From Gammaproteobacteria bacterium (GTDB lineage: Bacteria > Pseudomonadota > Gammaproteobacteria > Ga0077536): 64,000 bases of DNA. Below the pieces are notes generated by a model. That model was not told the origin of the DNA and ran no database searches. It saw only the letters and a program-made list of their open reading frames with translations. Made by a program: the position numbers and the translations under genes. Of this stretch, positions 35,391 to 57,350 are shown piece by piece (the stretch's first letter is position 1; each line of letters begins with the position of its first letter). The stretch spans positions 248,001 to 312,000 of the forward strand of contig JAJFJQ010000073.1 in the NCBI GenBank assembly GCA_021773835.1, written 5' to 3'.

Positions 35391-35807
35391 TTAGGCAACA
35401 TCCTGCACCTGCTCGGCGGCGTTCGCTTCGCCACGTCTAATCGATCGGGTTTGCACTGTCCGCGGGCCGAGGACGCGTTCGAGCGTCGGCAGACAGTCAC
35501 GCGGCTCGCAGTCCCCACACATAAAAATATCGATTGCAGCGAAACTGCGCTCTGGCCAAGTGTGGATCGTGATATGACTTTCGGCGAGGACAGAAACGCC
35601 GCTGACGCCGCCGCCATCGCCAAATCGATGATAGTGTGAGTGCAATACTGTAGCGCCCGCCGTGATCGCGCTTGACTCTAGCGCTTCACGGATCACGTCG
35701 ACGTCTCCTAAATTGCTGGCGCCCCAAAACTCCACGAGCAGGTGCTCGCCAGCGTAGGCGAAGCCGTCGGTGGTCTGCTTGAAGTGATCAGGTGGTTGGT
35801 GAGTCAT
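35391..35807 (-). CDS. speD: S-adenosylmethionine decarboxylase proenzyme (canonical SpeD)
   Basis: The 138-residue protein is a class 1B (SpeH-type) AdoMet decarboxylase. The self-cleavage site is LAES-HITIHTWPE: Ser77 becomes the pyruvoyl group, His82 assists processing and Cys97 is the proton donor, at the same offsets (+5, +20) as in Thermotoga SpeD. It supplies decarboxylated AdoMet to the adjacent spermidine synthase. The ATG at 35807 lies inside the 3' end of speE (20-base overlap) with GGGGAATGCA upstream. It is the last gene of a three-gene polyamine operon. Confidence 0.93.
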   Translation of the reverse strand: MTHQPPDHFKQTTDGFAYAGEHLLVEFWGASNLGDVDVIREALESSAITAGATVLHSHYHRFGDGGGVSGVSVLAESHITIHTWPERSFAAIDIFMCGDCEPRDCLPTLERVLGPRTVQTRSIRRGEANAAEQVQDVA

Positions 35808-36669
35808 TGCATTCCCCAGTGATTGCATGGATCCAATGCGGCAGCACAAAGCTGGCCAGATGATGGGCTGGCGTATAGTGGCGCAAGGAAGCACCCATTC
35901 GTTCAAATCTTAGCCTTAGGTGTTCGAGCGAGGGGTCAAACACGCGCGCGTCGCGGGTGCCGAAGCCCATCACCATTGAACCGCCGTAGTAGGTCGGTAC
36001 GGCTACTTGGTAACACTTAGCACGCAGTCCAAGCTTGCGCAGCGCTTGCATTGTGCCGCGTGCCTCTTCGGGTTGCAGAAACACGACGCCGTTTTGTAAC
36101 GATAGCGCACCGTTCTGGTTCAAGGCCGCCTCGCATAATTGATAAAATTCCTTTGAGAAGAGGATCTCGCCAGCCCCGACGGGATCAGTCGAGTCACTGA
36201 TAATGACGTCGTAGCGGCTTTGTTCACGGCGAAGATAGGCGAACGCGTCTTCGACGACCAGGTTGGCGCGGGGGTCGTCATACACCGCGCCGGCGTCGTT
36301 AAGTATGGGCATATGCTCGATGCAGGAGGCGACAACCTGTTCATCAATTTCGATCATATCGACGCGTTCAATGTCGTGCTTGAGTACCTCGCGTAACGAG
36401 CCGCCGTCACCGCCTCCAATGATCAGAACTGCACGTGGCGATTCACAGGCAAACATAGGTACGTGCACCAGCATTTCGTGATACATGAACTCATCACGTT
36501 CGGTGGTCTGCACGATACCGTCTAGGATCAGAACCCGGCCAAAGCGTTGCGTTTGAACGATCTCGATGCGCTGGTACGCACTCTCGCTGCTATACAGATC
36601 CGCCTCAACTGCGAAGCCTTGGTAGGCGCTGTCGCCGTGGAGATTTTCGATAAACTGCCGGCTCGCCAA
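35788..36669 (-). CDS. speE: Polyamine aminopropyltransferase (spermidine synthase)
   Basis: The protein has about 293 residues if it starts at TTG 36669, close to E. coli SpeE. The aminopropyltransferase landmarks are ILDGIVQTTERDEFMYHEML, VLIIGGGDGGSLREVLKH, MIEIDEQV and the catalytic DSTDPVGAGEILFSKEFY. It transfers aminopropyl from decarboxylated AdoMet to putrescine or a related amine. No ATG exists near the N-terminus; an upstream TTG at 36726 would overlap the preceding gene by 56 bases and is less likely. It is flanked by two SpeD-type genes on the same strand. Confidence 0.93.
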   Translation of the reverse strand: MASRQFIENLHGDSAYQGFAVEADLYSSESAYQRIEIVQTQRFGRVLILDGIVQTTERDEFMYHEMLVHVPMFACESPRAVLIIGGGDGGSLREVLKHDIERVDMIEIDEQVVASCIEHMPILNDAGAVYDDPRANLVVEDAFAYLRREQSRYDVIISDSTDPVGAGEILFSKEFYQLCEAALNQNGALSLQNGVVFLQPEEARGTMQALRKLGLRAKCYQVAVPTYYGGSMVMGFGTRDARVFDPSLEHLRLRFERMGASLRHYTPAHHLASFVLPHWIHAITGECNDSPTT

Positions 36670-36670
36670 G

Positions 36671-37069
36671 CTATCCGACCTCAGCCAGTTCAAGCGCGAA
36701 GGCACCGCGGAGCATCGGGGTGGCAATCACCGTTGACGGCACAAAATAGCGACGGCAGACATCCTCGGCGACCGCGTTGTCAAATTCTTTGCAAGAGAAT
36801 ATATCGATGTAAACCTGTCCTAGGTTCTCGGCAAAATGCGCGCATATATTGGAAGTTTCGATAAGCTGGATCACGGTGTAGCCGGCGGACTCGTATGAAT
36901 GGGTGGCGAAATGTTCAATGCTGGGTTCGCCAAAGGCGCGCATTTTTATCGCTATTACGAGTTCGTTAACCCATGCAAGTAAATGTACCGGATCGGTCAA
37001 AAACTGACGTGGGCAACCGGCAAAATCAAGGACTAGGTGTTGGCCCCACGGCTGTGTGGCTTGATGCAT
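36671..37069 (-). CDS. Divergent SpeD paralogue
   Basis: The 132-residue protein aligns with SpeD without gaps around the active site. Canonical ES-HITIH-TWPE becomes TS-NICAH-FAEN: the pyruvoyl-forming serine (Ser73), the processing His (His78) and the Cys (Cys93) are kept at the usual spacing, but the flanking Glu, His and TWPE are replaced. It could therefore still self-cleave, with a different substrate pocket. Other SpeD homologues have become pyruvoyl-dependent ornithine or arginine decarboxylases, and trypanosomes use an inactive SpeD partner as an activator; either role would fit. It is the first gene of the operon, one base before the proposed speE start. Confidence 0.85.
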   Translation of the reverse strand: MHQATQPWGQHLVLDFAGCPRQFLTDPVHLLAWVNELVIAIKMRAFGEPSIEHFATHSYESAGYTVIQLIETSNICAHFAENLGQVYIDIFSCKEFDNAVAEDVCRRYFVPSTVIATPMLRGAFALELAEVG

Positions 37070-37376: not shown

Positions 37377-37787
37377 ATGCCGCCAATTGATCTGGGTCCG
37401 CAAGAATGGCTGTCGCTGATCACTCACCTGAAACGATGGCTAGGCAATCTGCTCCGCGCACGTGCGCTGCGCAAGCGAGAATCCACCGAGGCGCTGCGCG
37501 CGGTGGTGAAGGCGGTACGTAAGACTACGGTCTATCTCCGACACTTGCGCGAGGGCAGCAAGCGCTCGCGACGACTCGAATCCGAACTCACATTATTGTG
37601 GACCGAGCTTGCTTTTGCGGTAGAAGATATTGGGCTCGAAGCGCTTGCAAAGCGTTGCAATATCAGCGGGCGCTATTGGGCGGATCCTGCCGCATTCGAT
37701 GATGAGTTTTTACGCCAAGCGGGGGTCGGGCTCGGCGATATCGAGCGCCTGGCAAAACGCTCGCTACAAGAATTGAAGCGTCGTTGA
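37377..37787 (+). CDS. Hypothetical small basic protein
   Basis: A 136-residue, Arg/Lys-rich, mostly helical protein starting MPPIDLGPQEW. The middle (RKRESTEALRAVVKAVRKTTVYLRHLREGSKRSRRLESELTLLW) reads as amphipathic helices, and the C-terminus GDIERLAKRSLQELKRR is strongly basic. There is no signal peptide or recognised domain. It is followed 36 bases on by the methyltransferase gene on the same strand and appears to head the DMFase-type cluster; whether it belongs functionally is not known. Confidence 0.65.
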   Translation: MPPIDLGPQEWLSLITHLKRWLGNLLRARALRKRESTEALRAVVKAVRKTTVYLRHLREGSKRSRRLESELTLLWTELAFAVEDIGLEALAKRCNISGRYWADPAAFDDEFLRQAGVGLGDIERLAKRSLQELKRR

Positions 37788-37823
37788 TCGCAGTCCCCGA
37801 AATTCGACCGGAATAGTTTAATA

Positions 37824-38663
37824 ATGGCGCGAACACGGCAGTGGGACCCGATCCAGAAGCATTACGGCGATACGGATATCTCCGCGCGGATCCTAACGCG
37901 GCTGCGTCGAGCAGGTTATGATCTCGATAAGTTGAGCCGCAAGGATACGGCGACATTTGACGAATTCCACGGTGGTGGTCGCGCATCTACGTTGGCACTC
38001 GCCGCATTCGCGAGCGTTGACCCGGGTATGCGAGTCCTCGACCTTGGCAGTGGCATCGGTGGTCCGGCACGTACCCTCGCGGCCGAACGTGGGTGTAGGG
38101 TCACCGGACTCGAATTGACCGCGGAATTCGTGCGGGCTGGTAAGATGCTGACGGAGCGCTTGGGTATGGCGGCAACGGTAGACTTTGTGCAAGCCAGCGC
38201 GACGGATATTCCATTCAAGGCCGAGACTTTTGATATCGTCTGGTCGCAGAATATGCTGATGAATGTGCGGGACAAGGAGCAGCTTTTCCGCGAGGCGTTT
38301 CGCGTGACCAAACCAGGCGGCGTGTTCGCCCTTGAGACTGTGGTCGCCGGATCCGGCGAGGGGCTTCATTTCCCAACGTTCTGGGCGGCAGACCCCAGCA
38401 TGAATTTCCTCGCGAGCGCACGAGAGCTGCGCGAGCTGGCGACGGCTGTCGGATTCACCGAGGCTAGCTTCGAGGACACGACAGACGCCGTGATCGCGAA
38501 TGGGCGCCGGCGTCTGCAGGCGGCGAAAGCCGAAGACCGTGTCGAACTCGATCTCAGTGTTATTGTGACAACTGCGGTCGCAGAGAAAATGGAGAATTCC
38601 GTATGCAACAATATCGAAGGCAAGACTCGAGCAGTGCAGGCATTATTTCAACGTTTGGCGTGA
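37824..38663 (+). CDS. SAM-dependent methyltransferase (class I)
   Basis: The 279-residue enzyme has a Rossmann methyltransferase core: motif I is VLDLGSGIGG at 71-80, followed by VTGLELTAEF (acidic loop) and DIVWSQNMLMNV (motif II). The N-terminal DEFHGGGRAST segment is found in the group that includes sarcosine/dimethylglycine and other amine or small-molecule methyltransferases. The substrate cannot be told from sequence. Its stop codon overlaps the start of the lipoprotein gene (TGATG), so they are translationally coupled. Its placement beside an amidase that in known cases releases dimethylamine suggests N-methyl chemistry. Confidence 0.87.
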   Translation: MARTRQWDPIQKHYGDTDISARILTRLRRAGYDLDKLSRKDTATFDEFHGGGRASTLALAAFASVDPGMRVLDLGSGIGGPARTLAAERGCRVTGLELTAEFVRAGKMLTERLGMAATVDFVQASATDIPFKAETFDIVWSQNMLMNVRDKEQLFREAFRVTKPGGVFALETVVAGSGEGLHFPTFWAADPSMNFLASARELRELATAVGFTEASFEDTTDAVIANGRRRLQAAKAEDRVELDLSVIVTTAVAEKMENSVCNNIEGKTRAVQALFQRLA

Positions 38664-39100
38664 TGAGGTATTCGAAAAGCCAGATAGACAGATATCGCCG
38701 TCTCGGCCTCGCCGGTAAATTTCGGAATTTTTACGTCGGCGTACTCGGTGCGTGCGCTTTGCTCTTATCGGCTTGCGGCGGTACCGAATCCGATTTCGAA
38801 TCAGTCGAATCTCCCAATGGGAAATTTGTGCTTATTGTGACGGTAACCGAACCGGCTCTACCGCACGCGCTACATAAGGTAACGGCATACGTCGAAGCCA
38901 CGGGCTCCGGTATCAGAGAGAAACTGCTGGAATCTCCACTAGCTAACGATGGCGTGCCGTTTACAGCGAAAAATATTGGTGTGCGCTGGACCAGCGCTAC
39001 AACGGCGCTGGTGTGCTTGCGACCAACGGACATGGCCGACCACGGGATCCGCATCGATGTTTCAGGTACCCCAAGTGCAGAACTGAAGCCGGGATGTTAG
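38663..39100 (+). CDS. Putative lipoprotein
   Basis: A 145-residue protein with a basic N-terminus, a hydrophobic stretch (about 25-36) and the lipobox LLLSAC with the lipidated Cys38. The mature part begins ESVESPNGKFVLIVTVTEP, with weak resemblance to small DUF-type lipoproteins, and ends in cysteine. The ATG at 38663 overlaps the methyltransferase stop as TGATG. It lies 52 bases before the small amidase subunit gene. Function unknown; an envelope location contrasts with the otherwise cytoplasmic cluster. Confidence 0.72.
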   Translation: MRYSKSQIDRYRRLGLAGKFRNFYVGVLGACALLLSACGGTESDFESVESPNGKFVLIVTVTEPALPHALHKVTAYVEATGSGIREKLLESPLANDGVPFTAKNIGVRWTSATTALVCLRPTDMADHGIRIDVSGTPSAELKPGC

Positions 39101-39152
39101 GCTTCGGCGTGCGTGTCAGGGACACGCGAGGCCACGGAAAAGGGAGCTACTT

Positions 39153-39584
39153 ATGACGAATCGCCGCCATTCACCACCGCAAACCGCGCTGCAGAGCGAT
39201 TATGGCTTTACCGCGTTGGATGACTACGATACCCGGATGTATATCTTGCCGTATGTGCGCGACAAATCGAGCCGCGAGGCCATTATCGCCGAACACCGCG
39301 AGCACCCGCGTGGGGCTGGCACAAAAGCGGGTGAAGCGGCGCCGCTGCACAGCGTAGGGCTTAAACGGCTGATTGACAAATTGCGAATGTTTCCGCAGGC
39401 CGGCAAGCATACGATTGTTGAGACAGTCCCGTGGAAGGAATACAAGATTGGTATCCTTCCGGGTCGCCGCGGCGGTGTCATCGAAATCACGGACGAGACC
39501 TACGCTACGCGTGAAGATGCGGAACATGCGATCTTTTTGATGCGGTTGCGGACCTTTCTAGATGCCTACGGCATCGAAAATTAA
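39153..39584 (+). CDS. dmfA1: N,N-dimethylformamidase-type small subunit
   Basis: A 143-residue protein resembling the small (alpha, about 132 residues) subunit of bacterial dimethylformamidase. Shared features are REAIIAEHREHPRGAG near 41, LIDKLRMFPQAGKHTI near 71, WKEYKIGIL near 94 and the closing EDAEHAIFLMRLRTFLDAY. The small subunit packs on the large catalytic subunit in an alpha2beta2 core. It precedes the large subunit gene by 27 bases. The match is from family memory, not alignment, so the symbol is provisional; substrate specificity may differ. Confidence 0.75.
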   Translation: MTNRRHSPPQTALQSDYGFTALDDYDTRMYILPYVRDKSSREAIIAEHREHPRGAGTKAGEAAPLHSVGLKRLIDKLRMFPQAGKHTIVETVPWKEYKIGILPGRRGGVIEITDETYATREDAEHAIFLMRLRTFLDAYGIEN

Positions 39585-39611
39585 ATTGTGACTTTATAAC
39601 GGGCCGAACAC

Positions 39612-42017
39612 ATGAGCTTACAGAAAAGCCTACTGCGTATTACTGGTTACTCGAACCGGTTTTCAGTGCGACCGAACGAATCGATTTCTTTTCACGTTAA
39701 TGCAGAACAGGGGGAGTCCTTCGACGCGGAGATTGTGCGTCTTATACACGGAGATACGAATCCCGCTGGACCGGGATACAAAGAGGAAGTCGTCAAGAGT
39801 GACATCAGCGGCACCTATCAAGGCAAGCATCAGCCACTGTTGTCAGGAAGCTACATTGTCGTTCCTCATGACGACGCACTGAACGTCGATAGCTTTAGTA
39901 TCTGCGCCTACATTTTCCCAACCACGCCGCAGGTCGATACCGAAGGTGTTGAGGTTGGCGTGCAGGGTTTGATCACAAAATGGGACGAGGGCAAACAATC
40001 TGGATATGGCTTATTCATCAATGCCGATGGTGAACTCGCTTTACGCCTTGGTGCAAACGGTAAGCTCGAAGAATTCGCGAGTGGCAAGCCACTCATGCGC
40101 AAGGTTTGGTATCGGGTAACGGCGTCATTCGACGCGCAAACAAAAACCGTGCGATTGTCACAGTCTGCCTATGTCACCAATACGAACGGTGGCCATGGCA
40201 TGAGCATGCTATTTCCCTATGACGACACCAACGGAGCCTTTGAAGGCAAGGCGACGCTTGCGCCGGCCGCTAATGATTGTCCGCTACTGATGGCGGCAAG
40301 CTGTTTAGAGGCGCGTTCGGGACGCTCGCTTTGGGGTGGGCATTTCAAGGACTTGTTGCAGCCGCTCGAAATTCCGGTACACACGCATGGTTACAACGGC
40401 AAGATCGAGCGACCAAAACTGACCAATCGAGCGCTAAGCGATGCCGAGTTCGAGTTGCTGCTCGCCAACCCCGGCGGTGCACAAGCGCCAAACCATATTC
40501 GAGATGCGATCGTTGGCGCCTGGGATTTTGCGGCCAACATGAAAGACAACGCCGCATCACCAACGATCATTGACACGGGACCGCGTGGGCTGCACGGTCA
40601 AGGCGTTAACCTACCGGTTCGAGGCGTGCCAGGATTCAATTGGTCGTCCGATTACATGAGCTTCCTGCACGGCCCACACGAATACGGTGCCATTCATTTC
40701 CACGACGAGTCGGTTGACGATGCACGGTGGGAACCAGCTTTCGAATGGCGTATTCCGGACGGTTTAAAAAGTGGTGTTTATGCCGCGCGCCTACGTATCG
40801 ATGGCGATCCGTCGGCTGAGACGGAAGACTACATCCCGTTCTTCGTGCGACCGCCGGCCTCAGGGCCGACAGCGAAAATCGCACTGATCATGTCGACCAA
40901 TAGCTATCTGGCCTATGCCAACGACAATCTGAGCGTGAACTCGGTGATTGCTCAATTGCTGACGGGGCAGGTGCCGCTGTTACAACCGAGCGATCTCTTG
41001 CTGAATCAGGAGCGCGGCTACGGTCTGGGGACGTATACCAGTTATCGAGACGGCTGGGGGGTAAACATTTCGTCGCGACTGCGGCCTATCCTCAATATGC
41101 GACCAAAATATATCCACGTATTATCACCCTCGCTGTGGCAGCTCAACGCCGATCTGCACTTAGTCGATTGGCTCGACAAAATGGATTACGACGTTGACAT
41201 TCATACCGAAGAAGACCTTGAGCGCGAAGGTGTTGGTCTACTCAATCAATATCAGGTGTGCCTAACGGGGCATCATCCCGAATACCAAAGCGAAAAAACA
41301 ATGGCCGCCTACCATGACTATCAACTGCAAGGCGGTCGGTGGTTATATTTGGCAGCAAATGGATTTTACTGGATCTGTGTACCACATCCGGACAATCCGA
41401 ACATCATTGAGGTGCGCAAAGGAGATAACGGTACCCGTGCCTGGACCATCGCACCGGGTGAATACTGCAATGCCTTCGATGGCAAGCATGGTGGACTGTG
41501 GCGGGTACGCGGACGCGTCATGAGCAAATTGCTTGGCGTTACGTTCACTTCATTCGGTTTGACTTATTCGTCTTATTACCGCCGTGCTCCGGATAGCGAA
41601 CTCCCGCAATGCGCCTGGATCATGGACGGTGTCGGCAAGGACGAACCGATTGGTAACTTTGGCTTGATCGGCGACGGCGCCGCGGGGCTTGAACTCGACC
41701 GCTACGACCTCGAATTGGGTACGCCGCATCATGCCTATCTACTCGCGCACTCAGAGGGTCACTCGGACATGTATGTCACAGTCTCTGAGGAATCGACCTT
41801 TCATGCGCGCGGTTATATTTCGGCCGGTACCGGCGAGACCAATCCACGCACACGTGCCGATATCGTGTACTACAAAACACCCGGAGATGGTGCCGTATTT
41901 TCGGTGGGGTCGATGGCCTGGTGCGGTTCATTGTCGCATAACGACTATCAGAATAACGTGTCTAAGATTATGCAAAATGTGATCGATGGTTTTCTTAAAC
42001 CTGGCGCGTTGCCGTGA
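39612..42017 (+). CDS. dmfA2: N,N-dimethylformamidase-type large subunit
   Basis: An 801-residue protein of the DMFase large-subunit family (characterised members about 760). It starts with a beta domain, then a LamG-like lectin fold (about 75-330, with SFSICAYIFPTT), then the catalytic part. The known enzyme has a mononuclear iron bound by two Tyr and one Glu; the matching segments here are STNSYLAYAND (Tyr432/435), GLGTYTSYRDG (Tyr475/478) and LTGHHPEYQS (Glu557). Known enzymes hydrolyse dimethylformamide to dimethylamine and formate. Homologues are broader than that activity, so the natural substrate is open. The stop overlaps the next gene's GTG. Confidence 0.87.
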   Translation: MSLQKSLLRITGYSNRFSVRPNESISFHVNAEQGESFDAEIVRLIHGDTNPAGPGYKEEVVKSDISGTYQGKHQPLLSGSYIVVPHDDALNVDSFSICAYIFPTTPQVDTEGVEVGVQGLITKWDEGKQSGYGLFINADGELALRLGANGKLEEFASGKPLMRKVWYRVTASFDAQTKTVRLSQSAYVTNTNGGHGMSMLFPYDDTNGAFEGKATLAPAANDCPLLMAASCLEARSGRSLWGGHFKDLLQPLEIPVHTHGYNGKIERPKLTNRALSDAEFELLLANPGGAQAPNHIRDAIVGAWDFAANMKDNAASPTIIDTGPRGLHGQGVNLPVRGVPGFNWSSDYMSFLHGPHEYGAIHFHDESVDDARWEPAFEWRIPDGLKSGVYAARLRIDGDPSAETEDYIPFFVRPPASGPTAKIALIMSTNSYLAYANDNLSVNSVIAQLLTGQVPLLQPSDLLLNQERGYGLGTYTSYRDGWGVNISSRLRPILNMRPKYIHVLSPSLWQLNADLHLVDWLDKMDYDVDIHTEEDLEREGVGLLNQYQVCLTGHHPEYQSEKTMAAYHDYQLQGGRWLYLAANGFYWICVPHPDNPNIIEVRKGDNGTRAWTIAPGEYCNAFDGKHGGLWRVRGRVMSKLLGVTFTSFGLTYSSYYRRAPDSELPQCAWIMDGVGKDEPIGNFGLIGDGAAGLELDRYDLELGTPHHAYLLAHSEGHSDMYVTVSEESTFHARGYISAGTGETNPRTRADIVYYKTPGDGAVFSVGSMAWCGSLSHNDYQNNVSKIMQNVIDGFLKPGALP

Positions 42018-42439
42018 GCATCGGCGAGACAAAGCCGCTGAGAGGGGTGGCGCAGAAAAAAGACCCCTACTGGTGGATGCATCCGGCTTATCGTGGCGAA
42101 CAAGCCTTGGACCTAGCGACCCTTGATGCAATGCCCGCAGGCGGCTACAAGTGGGTAGCACACAGTGACGAGATGACCACGGGCGGCGAAAATGAATCAA
42201 ACTTAGATGCAACCAATGGGTACTTCGCAGATTTTGCCCAGCTGCTCTATAAGATGAACGGTTTTCGCCCTGGTCCCGTTGAGAATTGGTACGTTATTGT
42301 TTGCGTCGAACCATCGAAGCGGTGGGCCGTGGGTCAGCTCCGTGCCGATCCCGTGACCCCGGTCCAGGTGTTTGACGATCTTATTTTCGATTCAGAAGAT
42401 GCCGCCCGTGCAAAGGCCGAATCGCTGCGTGGCAAATAA
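42014..42439 (+). CDS. Uncharacterised protein coupled to the DMFase-type large subunit
   Basis: A 141-residue protein that starts at a GTG overlapping the large-subunit stop by four bases (GTGA), the clearest sign of coupling in the cluster. It is rich in Trp, Tyr and acidic residues: DPYWWMHPAYRGEQ near the start, NWYVIVCVEPSKRWAVGQ in the middle, and a Asp/Glu-rich C-terminus. There is no signal peptide or membrane helix, and I recognise no family. Known DMFases have only two subunits, so this may be a third subunit, an assembly factor or an enzyme for the product. Confidence 0.75.
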   Translation: MSIGETKPLRGVAQKKDPYWWMHPAYRGEQALDLATLDAMPAGGYKWVAHSDEMTTGGENESNLDATNGYFADFAQLLYKMNGFRPGPVENWYVIVCVEPSKRWAVGQLRADPVTPVQVFDDLIFDSEDAARAKAESLRGK

Positions 42440-42504: not shown

Positions 42505-43344
42505 TTGGTTCGCTCCTCGGAGCAGATTGTACGGGCAGGTCGTTGCAGGGCTACGCAGGTGTCGAGCAGAGTGTCTGGATTTAGATCCGAGCAGTTCGAG
42601 CATGACGACGGTGACGTAGCGATCTTCACCGTGTGTGGTCGTACTGGCCTTAACCTGATCGGGGCCGATACAGTTCGACAGTGTGCCGAAGGCGTGCGAT
42701 CGCACGCGGCCAATCCGAGACTTCGTTGCGCCGTGCTTCAAGGCAATTCGGAACGCGCATTTGTCGGCGGTGCAGACCTTAAAGAGATTCAATCACTTGA
42801 AACCCATAACGCGGCAGAATTTGTTGGTGCAATTCATGCGCTGTGTTTGGCGGTAAGAGAATTTCCCGTCCCAATCATTGCCCGTATCAAAGGATACTGC
42901 TTGGGCGGTGGCCTGGAAATCGCAGCATCTTGTGATTTCCGGTACTGCGATTCCAGTGCGGTATTCGGTATGCCTGAAGTTAAAGTCGGGGTTCCATCGG
43001 TGGTTGAAGCGGCGTTGCTGCCAAGCCTGATTGGCTGGGGCAAAACCCGCGAGTTAGTTTATCGGGGGAATTTAATCGACGCCGCCGAAGCATATCGAAT
43101 TGGCTTGGTCGATCAGTATGTCGGTGATGAGGATATCGATAACGCGATGGCAGCAGCGATTGGTGACATACTTGATGCCGGCCCGAGCGCTATCCGCCTG
43201 CAAAAGCAGCTTTGTCGACAATGGGAATCGTTGCCGGTGGCGGAGGCGATCGAAGCGGGTTTACCGATATTTTCGCAAGCCTTTGAGACAGACGAGCCGA
43301 GGCGATACTGCCAGCGGTTTTTCGCGCGTAATAAATCGTCGTGA
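42505..43344 (+). CDS. Enoyl-CoA hydratase/isomerase-family protein
   Basis: A crotonase-fold protein of up to 279 residues. Oxyanion-hole residues lie in FVGGADLKEI and YCLGGGLEIAASCDFR, and MPEVKVGVPSVVEAALLP supplies the likely catalytic Glu. The SVVEAALLP variant defines a subgroup of hydratases, so hydration of enoyl-CoA is likely. The start is uncertain: TTG 42505, GTG 42559 and GTG 42571 are all possible and the first homologous residues follow 42571. It begins 65 bases after the DMFase cluster on the same strand and converges on the RND permease. Confidence 0.88.
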   Translation: MVRSSEQIVRAGRCRATQVSSRVSGFRSEQFEHDDGDVAIFTVCGRTGLNLIGADTVRQCAEGVRSHAANPRLRCAVLQGNSERAFVGGADLKEIQSLETHNAAEFVGAIHALCLAVREFPVPIIARIKGYCLGGGLEIAASCDFRYCDSSAVFGMPEVKVGVPSVVEAALLPSLIGWGKTRELVYRGNLIDAAEAYRIGLVDQYVGDEDIDNAMAAAIGDILDAGPSAIRLQKQLCRQWESLPVAEAIEAGLPIFSQAFETDEPRRYCQRFFARNKSS

Positions 43345-55751: not shown

Positions 55752-57350
55752 TTATTTACTTTTTGTCGCTGTAAACTTGACGACCGGCTTGTCGTTTGAC
55801 GCCTGCAGCATCAGTGCGACGCCGGAGGGAACGAATATTGAGTCGCCACCTTTTACCGCCATCGTGTGGCCTTCGACATCGATAAGTAATTCGCCAGTAA
55901 GAGGCGCGATGATTGTGTCGTTGTCCGATACGTGTTCGCGCGGTTTGTCGCCGGGTTGCAGTATGTCCTTGGCGGTATCGTAGCCCCATACGAGCAGCTT
56001 TTGCGTGAGTGATTGTTCGCTCAGCGGACCATCATTAGGTTGATCCCAACGCTCCAATTTCAATTTACTAAGCGGCTTATAAGCTACGACCTTGTTACCG
56101 CCCTGAAAACGCGCTTCGTAGAGTGCGGCGTCGGCGCGCTTTTGCAGCTCCACATTGGGTAGGCTACGAGCCGGCTTGATAGTTGCAACGCCAACGTGGA
56201 TGGTTACTGTTTCGCGATTCTTTGCGCCCGAGTGAGCGATCTTTATCGCTTCGATTCGCTTTCGCAACGCGTCCGCCATCCGTGCTGCATTGCGTGCATC
56301 ACAACCTGGGAGCATTAACGCGAGCTTTTCATCCTCAAAACGGCCGGCGAGGTCACCCGAGCGACGGCCGAAACCTTTTATCGATTGCGCCACGCGCTTC
56401 AGCAAGGCATCGGCCGCTTGATTGCCGTTGCTTGTCGCATACGCTTCGAATTCATCGATTTCTGTAATGATCAGCGACATCGGTTTTTGCTCCCGTGTCG
56501 CCCGGCGCCATTCTGACTCGAACTGTTCGTCGAAATGCCTGCGATTGGCTAATCCGGTGACCTGACAAATAGGTGATACCCGTTCCAGCGTGGTAGCCAA
56601 GGCTTTCGCCTTCCCTTGAACAAGGCCGAGGTCAGCTGCCGTCCGACGTAAGGTGATCTCAGCTTGCTCGCGTTTGTCCGTGCTTGTTTTTAGCGCAACG
56701 TTGAGCTTTTCGACCTGTGTCCGACGTTGGTCAAGGTGTCCGGCAAGTTGCTCACTCTCATTCTGCGAGATTGCAGATTCCCACACAAAACGCTTAACAA
56801 CTATTGAACACAAAATCACGAGGGCGAATGCGGCAACCATTGCGGCGCAAATGATCAGGCCAAGCTGGTCACCTCGAACGATTGCGATTCCTGCACTGGG
56901 CAACAACGCTGATGCTGCGAATAAAATCGACGGTAACAGTGACCCCGCGTAAAAGACCGCAGCGCAAAATGCCATAATCGCCGCCGCCCCGGTTGCCAAT
57001 ATAGCGGTCGCGATGATGTCCGAGTAGACGTAATAGGCCGCGATTCCACCCCACGCAAGTCCACTCCCGATGGCACCGATATTAAACATCAGCGTCCAGC
57101 GTTTAATCGCGGCGGCCGGCGGCGGCGCCGAACGTTTATAGGTCGTTGCGATGACCCATCGTCCTACACAGAGTATCAGCGGGAGAAGGGGCAGGATGAG
57201 CGCCGATTTCGGTGCCTCAACGGTCCACGCAACGGCAAGCACGACAAGCGCACCGATGGTTGTTGAGATGCAGTCGAGATAAGCAAGGTTAAACAGCCGG
57301 TCTGTCTGTTTCGCCTCGAATCGAATCACGGCCGTTTCGCTAAAGTCCAT
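55752..57350 (-). CDS. Membrane protein with degenerate GGDEF and C-terminal cupin
   Basis: A 532-residue protein: about six or seven membrane helices (25-190), a coiled linker (200-250), a GGDEF-fold domain (about 262-425) and a cupin-like domain (about 465-525, GDKPREHVSDNDTIIAPLTGELLI). The cyclase motif, normally RYGGDEF, reads RFEDEKL (337-343) and the first metal Asp of the DxD pair is Glu (TEIDEF), so cyclase activity is unlikely. The fold could bind GTP or c-di-GMP, or be structural. The cupin has few His, so metal-free ligand binding is possible. No comparable fusion is known to me. Confidence 0.83.
   Translation of the reverse strand: MDFSETAVIRFEAKQTDRLFNLAYLDCISTTIGALVVLAVAWTVEAPKSALILPLLPLILCVGRWVIATTYKRSAPPPAAAIKRWTLMFNIGAIGSGLAWGGIAAYYVYSDIIATAILATGAAAIMAFCAAVFYAGSLLPSILFAASALLPSAGIAIVRGDQLGLIICAAMVAAFALVILCSIVVKRFVWESAISQNESEQLAGHLDQRRTQVEKLNVALKTSTDKREQAEITLRRTAADLGLVQGKAKALATTLERVSPICQVTGLANRRHFDEQFESEWRRATREQKPMSLIITEIDEFEAYATSNGNQAADALLKRVAQSIKGFGRRSGDLAGRFEDEKLALMLPGCDARNAARMADALRKRIEAIKIAHSGAKNRETVTIHVGVATIKPARSLPNVELQKRADAALYEARFQGGNKVVAYKPLSKLKLERWDQPNDGPLSEQSLTQKLLVWGYDTAKDILQPGDKPREHVSDNDTIIAPLTGELLIDVEGHTMAVKGGDSIFVPSGVALMLQASNDKPVVKFTATKSK

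Follow-up and report, generated by a model that had tools for sequence, protein, structure and literature searches.

A dimethylformamidase-type operon with a previously unnamed third gene, a likely second small subunit

Dimethylformamide (DMF) is usually seen as a man-made solvent, and the natural role of the dimethylformamidase (DMFase)-type iron enzymes is therefore a question. That question is raised by the locus analyzed here, which lies in a 64,000-nucleotide stretch of gammaproteobacterial DNA (the window). We read positions 39153-42439 of the window as probably a three-gene operon for a mononuclear-iron DMFase-type amide hydrolase with an additional, alpha' subunit and a role in amine catabolism; this reading is drawn from the sequence comparisons described below.

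Gene content and active site of the locus

The original prediction described a DMFase-type subunit pair in a tight, coupled plus-strand run with extra genes, and proposed a cluster of six. Reading of the ORFs in the window confirmed all six on the plus strand at the coordinates first assigned to them, and the run was as described; its TGATG and GTGA couplings are both present. The membership of the cluster stood only in part: the six ORFs exist, but the first is unconvincing and an enoyl-CoA hydratase had been omitted. The features are as follows.

37377-37787, plus strand: ORF of 136 aa with no family match, probably outside the system
37824-38663, plus strand: class I SAM-dependent methyltransferase (Methyltransf_11), in a separable module
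38663-39100, plus strand: small lipoprotein with TGATG coupling to the methyltransferase, in a separable module
39153-39584, plus strand: DMFase-type small subunit (DmfA1-like), 143 aa
39612-42017, plus strand: DMFase-type large subunit (DmfA2-like), 801 aa, with a LamG/pentraxin-like domain and a DMFA2_C catalytic domain
40344-40385, plus strand: codons of large-subunit residues 245-258 (FKDLLQPLEIPVHT), the trio-type insertion and a candidate g3 docking element
42014-42439, plus strand: g3, 141 aa, the third component, a likely diverged small-subunit paralogue by profile and model comparison
42571-43344, plus strand: enoyl-CoA hydratase/crotonase (PRK06143 type; NF004795), in a separable module

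The first ORF matched no Pfam or NCBIfam family and, because relatives of it were absent from the fetched loci, was rejected as a member of the cluster. The seventh gene, the enoyl-CoA hydratase (NF004795, 291 bits against a cutoff of 283), is part of the conserved neighborhood; its ORF spans 42505-43344, and comparison with homologues places the true start probably at 42571. The best start of the lipoprotein (lipobox LLSAC) is at 38663, where TGATG overlaps the methyltransferase stop, and the g3 start overlaps the large-subunit stop by 4 nt (GTGA). A scan for promoters and terminators found sites no more numerous than in shuffles. Genes for transport, for a DmfR-like regulator or for amine metabolism are missing next to the window's trio.

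The large subunit aligns with that of Paracoccus DMFase (DmfA1/DmfA2, encoded on pAMI2; PDB 6lvb_A) over its full length (residues 9-798, E 1.2e-179, 602 bits, ~42% identity), and its Pfam matches are DMFA2_C (E 1e-83) and a LamG domain. In the Paracoccus enzyme, Tyr399, Tyr440 and Glu521 are the iron ligands and His519 is catalytic (PMC7686228). Every catalytic residue named in that study is present in the window's large subunit, and the prediction that iron-binding Tyr and Glu are retained is borne out by the alignment: the ligands are Y435 (codon 40914-40916), Y475 (41034-41036) and E557 (41280-41282), and these residues and H555 are invariant in 41/41 aligned sequences. S431 and N583 are also kept, so that the window shares with Paracoccus the 2-Tyr-1-Glu iron site and its His and Asn, and conservation extends to F730, which corresponds to F693, the residue that restricts the pocket in the Paracoccus enzyme. 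By phmmer the small subunit finds 6lvb_B (E 3.3e-6), and its gene lies directly upstream of the large-subunit gene, as in Paracoccus and as at every full-length trio-type large subunit examined. At the level of sequence, membership in the iron enzyme family and conservation of its active site are established. The locus is DMFase-type by every feature tested (a DMFA2_C large subunit aligning full length to 6lvb_A, a small subunit encoded directly upstream) except the two-component make-up, because its clade has an obligate third gene, g3, which is missing from the Paracoccus pAMI2 operon. In addition, column occupancy in the 41-sequence alignment revealed an insertion at residues 245-258 in trio-type large subunits that is absent from duo-type ones; the Paracoccus large subunit likewise lacks these 14 residues.

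By analogy, the Fe(III) site of the large (beta) subunit, formed by two Tyr and one Glu, would activate water, which would attack a small N-alkylated amide to yield an acid and an amine, and the small (alpha) subunit, like its Paracoccus counterpart, would support both the fold and the entrance for the substrate.

Occurrence and ancestry of the third gene

Searches with g3 returned no Pfam or NCBIfam match. Among 96 relatives searched, g3 was present in 24 genomes, and on contigs that include both genes it adjoined the large subunit. Scanning GTDB genomes yielded 78 named g3 loci, comprising Gammaproteobacteria MAGs and ~50 Alphaproteobacteria records, most of which are single-cell genomes of the SAR11 type, and the order small-large-g3 on one strand was kept wherever the contig permits. 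Judged only at loci with room on the contig, g3 lies directly 3' of the large subunit in all 100+ loci examined; it also occupies this position on two Aminobacter plasmids. The 4-nt overlap of large subunit and g3 recurs in 25/31 A-type copies counted and in most B-type copies the two genes are within a few bases of each other, some of the counted loci being overlapping fetches of one genome.

The distribution of g3 follows the relatedness of the large subunit. Both a small subunit and g3 accompany the large subunits that reach 56% identity with that of the window; those at most 44% identical have a small subunit and no g3, and one at 30% identity has neither. In a maximum-likelihood tree, all g3-bearing large subunits form one clade with support of 100/100 and no reversal. 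On these phylogenetic and positional grounds, the trio has a single origin and an obligate gene order. The result is a sharply bounded clade with an extra obligate gene that spans SAR11, other streamlined plankton and the plasmids of methylotrophic Aminobacter. When 398 Pseudomonadota genomes were surveyed, g3 was found in the window's own genome only, compared with 28 genomes containing DMFA2_C, and g3 is therefore rare outside these lineages. The gene is labeled a hypothetical protein in the Aminobacter records, and a literature search of open-licence papers found no published description of it; g3 is a previously unnamed third gene of a DMFase-type operon.

What kind of protein is g3? The original prediction had called it novel. 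It is the most telling part of the run, and the reading that fits it best is that of a second small subunit. Using hhalign, residues 67-133 of g3 aligned to residues 63-125 of the small subunit with a probability of 93-94% and a score of 48.5, compared with maxima of 1.9% and 18.8 in 60 column shuffles, and the g3 HMM retrieved several B-type small subunits (E 1e-4 to 2.6e-8). Sequence profiles therefore relate g3 to the small subunits, with the restriction that A-type g3 against the A-type small subunit alone gave 1.7%. Two AlphaFold (AF2) models, made from g3 proteins ~30% identical to each other, both had 6lvb_B as their best VIA-align match in the PDB, at the modest values of Z 5.4 (next 3.9) and Z 4.9 (next 4.2). 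Z scores of 4.9-5.4 are insufficient taken alone, and the register of the models on 6lvb_B agrees with the hhalign register. Foldseek of the models against the PDB gave nothing significant, with no DMFase chain below E 0.5, and PDB sequences searched with the g3 profile (hmmsearch) yielded chance matches only. The homology between g3 and the small subunit is remote. Taken together, profile comparison and the two models make g3 a likely small-subunit paralogue that has diverged, and the unit accordingly a likely amidase of three genes (alpha, beta, alpha').

As alpha', g3 may bind the large subunit that alpha also binds, and would adjust substrate access or assembly. Contact would probably be made by the C-terminal strand-helix domain of g3 and by the trio-specific insertion, residues 245-258 of the large subunit being a candidate docking element. 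Alternatively, g3 could be no structural subunit at all and act as a dedicated assembly factor, iron-delivery factor or regulator for trio-type large subunits. Such a role would suit a small, always co-encoded, translationally coupled protein whose N-terminus is variable and of low confidence in both models, and canonical DMFase functions without g3 (PMC7686228). Nevertheless, g3 appears similar in its conserved C-terminal domain to the small subunit, a protein bound to the large subunit in 6lvb, and the trio-type large subunits have a matching specific insertion; we consider a purely accessory g3 doubtful. We infer instead a complex of all three proteins acting on an N-alkylamide. The trio tells which proteins to co-express for activity: expression of the annotated large and small subunits alone, from SAR11 or related MAGs, would omit the third gene.

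The flanking methyltransferase, lipoprotein and hydratase genes

The methyltransferase and lipoprotein had led to the suggestion of a pathway for N-methylated amides, biosynthetic or for a natural substrate. In the biosynthetic view, the six genes act together and these two products are partners of the amidase. A search for the same gene order in other genomes, which had been proposed as a check, did find the flanking genes conserved with the amidase in some relatives: in genus g1 (G003), in genus g4 (G014, G020, G025) and, on shorter contigs, in further g4 genomes (G006, G031, G035). The outcome named beforehand as refuting the prediction, no such conservation in any relative, was not obtained. 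G014 and G020 both run from a MetX-like hydrolase through methyltransferase, lipoprotein, small subunit, large subunit, g3 and enoyl-CoA hydratase to an EthD protein; G025 has this order without a lipoprotein match, and the hydratase lies downstream of the trio in all three as well as in G003. The methyltransferase also resembles N-methyltransferases, which would fit a biosynthetic role.

The same module, however, is also found whole where there is no trio. G028 and G012 have one contiguous block of methyltransferase, lipoprotein, enoyl-CoA hydratase and EthD genes, with the lipoprotein stop and hydratase start ~1 base apart in G028, and G033 has the methyltransferase-hydratase pair, again without the trio. 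Conversely, no such module accompanies the trio of most genera, of SAR11 or of the Aminobacter plasmids. Methyltransferase homologues are present in 27/36 family genomes, many without an A-type trio nearby, so that methyltransferase and amidase are each found without the other in relatives and show no consistent linkage. Since the module occurs without the trio and the trio without the module, the two are separable. Moreover, in the trio tree the embedded G014 groups with the non-embedded G026, and trio and flanking module therefore have different histories. We take the methyltransferase, lipoprotein and enoyl-CoA hydratase to be a separable neighbor module, whose functional link to the amidase is not supported by these comparisons, and would assign them no part in the reaction. 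The biosynthetic cluster was rejected on the empty sites (L174 and L179), where a lipoprotein homologue lies between methyltransferase and hydratase and the trio is absent, together with the trio loci that lack the partners; with the other contexts of the trio being catabolic as well, we regard it as very improbable.

Catabolic settings and substrate

The closest plasmid relatives of the window's trio are also A-type, with large subunits 67-68% identical and g3 directly downstream. Unlike the window, they have no methyltransferase module. Plasmid pcAMD1 of A. niigataensis MD1 has the order LuxR-small-large-g3 and nothing else metabolic, and plasmid p1 of A. niigataensis strain DMFA1 has flotillin-small-large-g3-ABC transporter. 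Aligned over 344 residues, the LuxR protein of pcAMD1 shares 54% identity with the regulator upstream of dmfA1A2 on pAMI2, and the trio in this way connects the marine enzymes to a DMF-type regulator. We take strain DM-81T to be the type strain of A. niigataensis. The genus paper reports isolation of a strain on DMF and names DM-81T as a DMF user (PMC8235418), the pAMI2 regulator, DmfR, is a DMF-responsive activator (PMC4543880), and MD1 grows on metformin via dimethylamine (PMC9699525). Our literature search found no paper linking strain DMFA1 or pcAMD1 to a tested DMFase and, in the literature found, growth of MD1 or DMFA1 on DMF via the trio is not documented.

The FArhodopsin clusters of SAR11/HIMB59 have the same order small-large-g3 as the window, in B-type form and with a large subunit ~57% identical, but there the trio is set in a rhodopsin-flotillin-transporter cluster. 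In SAR11 the order is rhodopsin, flotillin, alpha/beta hydrolase, sodium symporter, small subunit, large subunit, g3, cupin and metallo-hydrolase. A dimethylformamidase is mentioned for this cluster in PMC10308929, whose passages on it name that one enzyme and describe neither g3 nor a trio. In relatives of the window's organism, several of which have a B-type trio in tandem with an A-type trio, the B-type trio is divergent beside genes for two glutamine-synthetase (GS)-like ligases, for a PhyH dioxygenase and for a class-I glutamine amidotransferase; the gene of an ammonium transporter (Amt) lies downstream. The B trio of G012 adjoins an FAD oxidase, a GS-like ligase and split glutamate-synthase genes. 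Transporters, a DmfR-like activator, GS-like ligases, Amt and amine-oxidase/glutamate-synthase-like neighbors are catabolic settings, which suggests a role of the trio in amide/amine catabolism rather than synthesis.

Our best guess for the substrate class is small N-alkylamides, whose amines would be released as a source of nitrogen and carbon. A larger N-acyl compound, such as a cyclic amide or an amino acid with an acyl group, could be the substrate instead. N-acetyl-(R)-beta-phenylalanine acylase (8huy) belongs to the large-subunit family, with a catalytic region homologous to that of the window's large subunit and a different substrate, and in streamlined marine relatives the A trio is followed by MFS, SDR and M20 amidohydrolase genes. 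The match to 8huy (E 2e-119; best stretch residues 260-795) is nevertheless weaker than that to 6lvb_A, at 403 compared with 602 bits, and both the conservation of F730 and the DmfR-like regulator beside the trio on pcAMD1 argue against a bulkier substrate, which we hold rather unlikely. The distribution of the clade suggests that N-methylated amides supply nitrogen and carbon in natural waters. It is possible, and we propose it tentatively, that trio DMFases form an enzyme class of their own, heterotrimeric (alpha-alpha'-beta) and directed at some natural N-methylated amide of marine and fresh waters. SAR11 lineages would then use it in their light- and membrane-associated FArhodopsin clusters, and some DMF-degrading plasmids would have acquired their enzyme from it.

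A family search of the window's genome found no member of PF11927, a family of the dimethylamine monooxygenase type, which weakly favors mono-N-methyl amides over DMF in this organism. The freed amine may be passed to gamma-glutamylation and oxidation in N-methylglutamate-type catabolism encoded elsewhere in the genome. Approximately 20-33 kb beyond the B trio, the window's genome has a GMAS-type ligase (660 bits, cutoff 470) together with split glutamate-synthase-like and sarcosine-oxidase-like genes. We take these to be mgs/mgd genes from established knowledge and domain content rather than a dedicated model, and the set reads as an N-methylglutamate-type route for amines.

Small subunit fused to an ABC permease

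At two loci (L170 and L168, local coordinates), a branched-chain-amino-acid-type ABC permease carries a DMFase small-subunit domain at its C-terminus (BPD_transp_2, residues 129-394; small-subunit HMM, 464-550, E about 1e-19), and the fusion gene is followed immediately by a duo-type large subunit.

L170 5392-7044, fusion gene, same assembly as the window (contig C21, about 87.4-89.0 kb)
L168 2281-3936, fusion gene, Agrobacterium plasmid

The fusion is apparently an importer bearing a subunit of its own enzyme, and it may explain the small subunits annotated 'inner-membrane translocator'.

Amidase homologues and their neighbors

Contig C47 of the same assembly encodes a divergent homologue (30% identity) of the large-subunit catalytic domain DMFA2_C, which retains the Fe-site Tyr, His and Glu and has neither a small subunit nor the third trio gene, g3, alongside; it adjoins acyl-CoA-dehydrogenase-like genes and one for an HTH_65-containing methyltransferase. 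Near the B-type trio of this genome, a single region encodes an FAD oxidase and a GS-like ligase and contains split glutamate-synthase-like genes, sarcosine-oxidase-like genes and a gene for a GMAS-type ligase. Flotillin genes accompany the trio in two settings, immediately upstream of an A-type trio on an Aminobacter plasmid and close to a B-type trio in SAR11, even though the two trios, like the two flotillins, have diverged.

L172 7905-10037, DMFA2_C homologue
L205 11520-17945 and L206 609-6995, region near the B-type trio
L166 9232-10992, flotillin, Aminobacter
L121 1644-3629, flotillin, SAR11

Flanking module and other window genes

The module of MetX-like hydrolase, methyltransferase, lipoprotein, enoyl-CoA hydratase and EthD protein is conserved, including where the amidase is absent.

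L179 6993-9913, amidase-free module
L174 7266-10277, amidase-free module

Elsewhere in the window, the following were recorded on the minus strand; the spermidine-synthase-like ORF was assigned by eye, and the ORF adjoining it seems to encode another protein of decarboxylase type.

35391-35906, minus, AdoMet decarboxylase family
35788-36726, minus, spermidine-synthase-like ORF
36671-37069, minus, the adjoining ORF
55752-57350, minus, 532-aa protein with a GGDEF diguanylate cyclase domain and a C-terminal cupin domain
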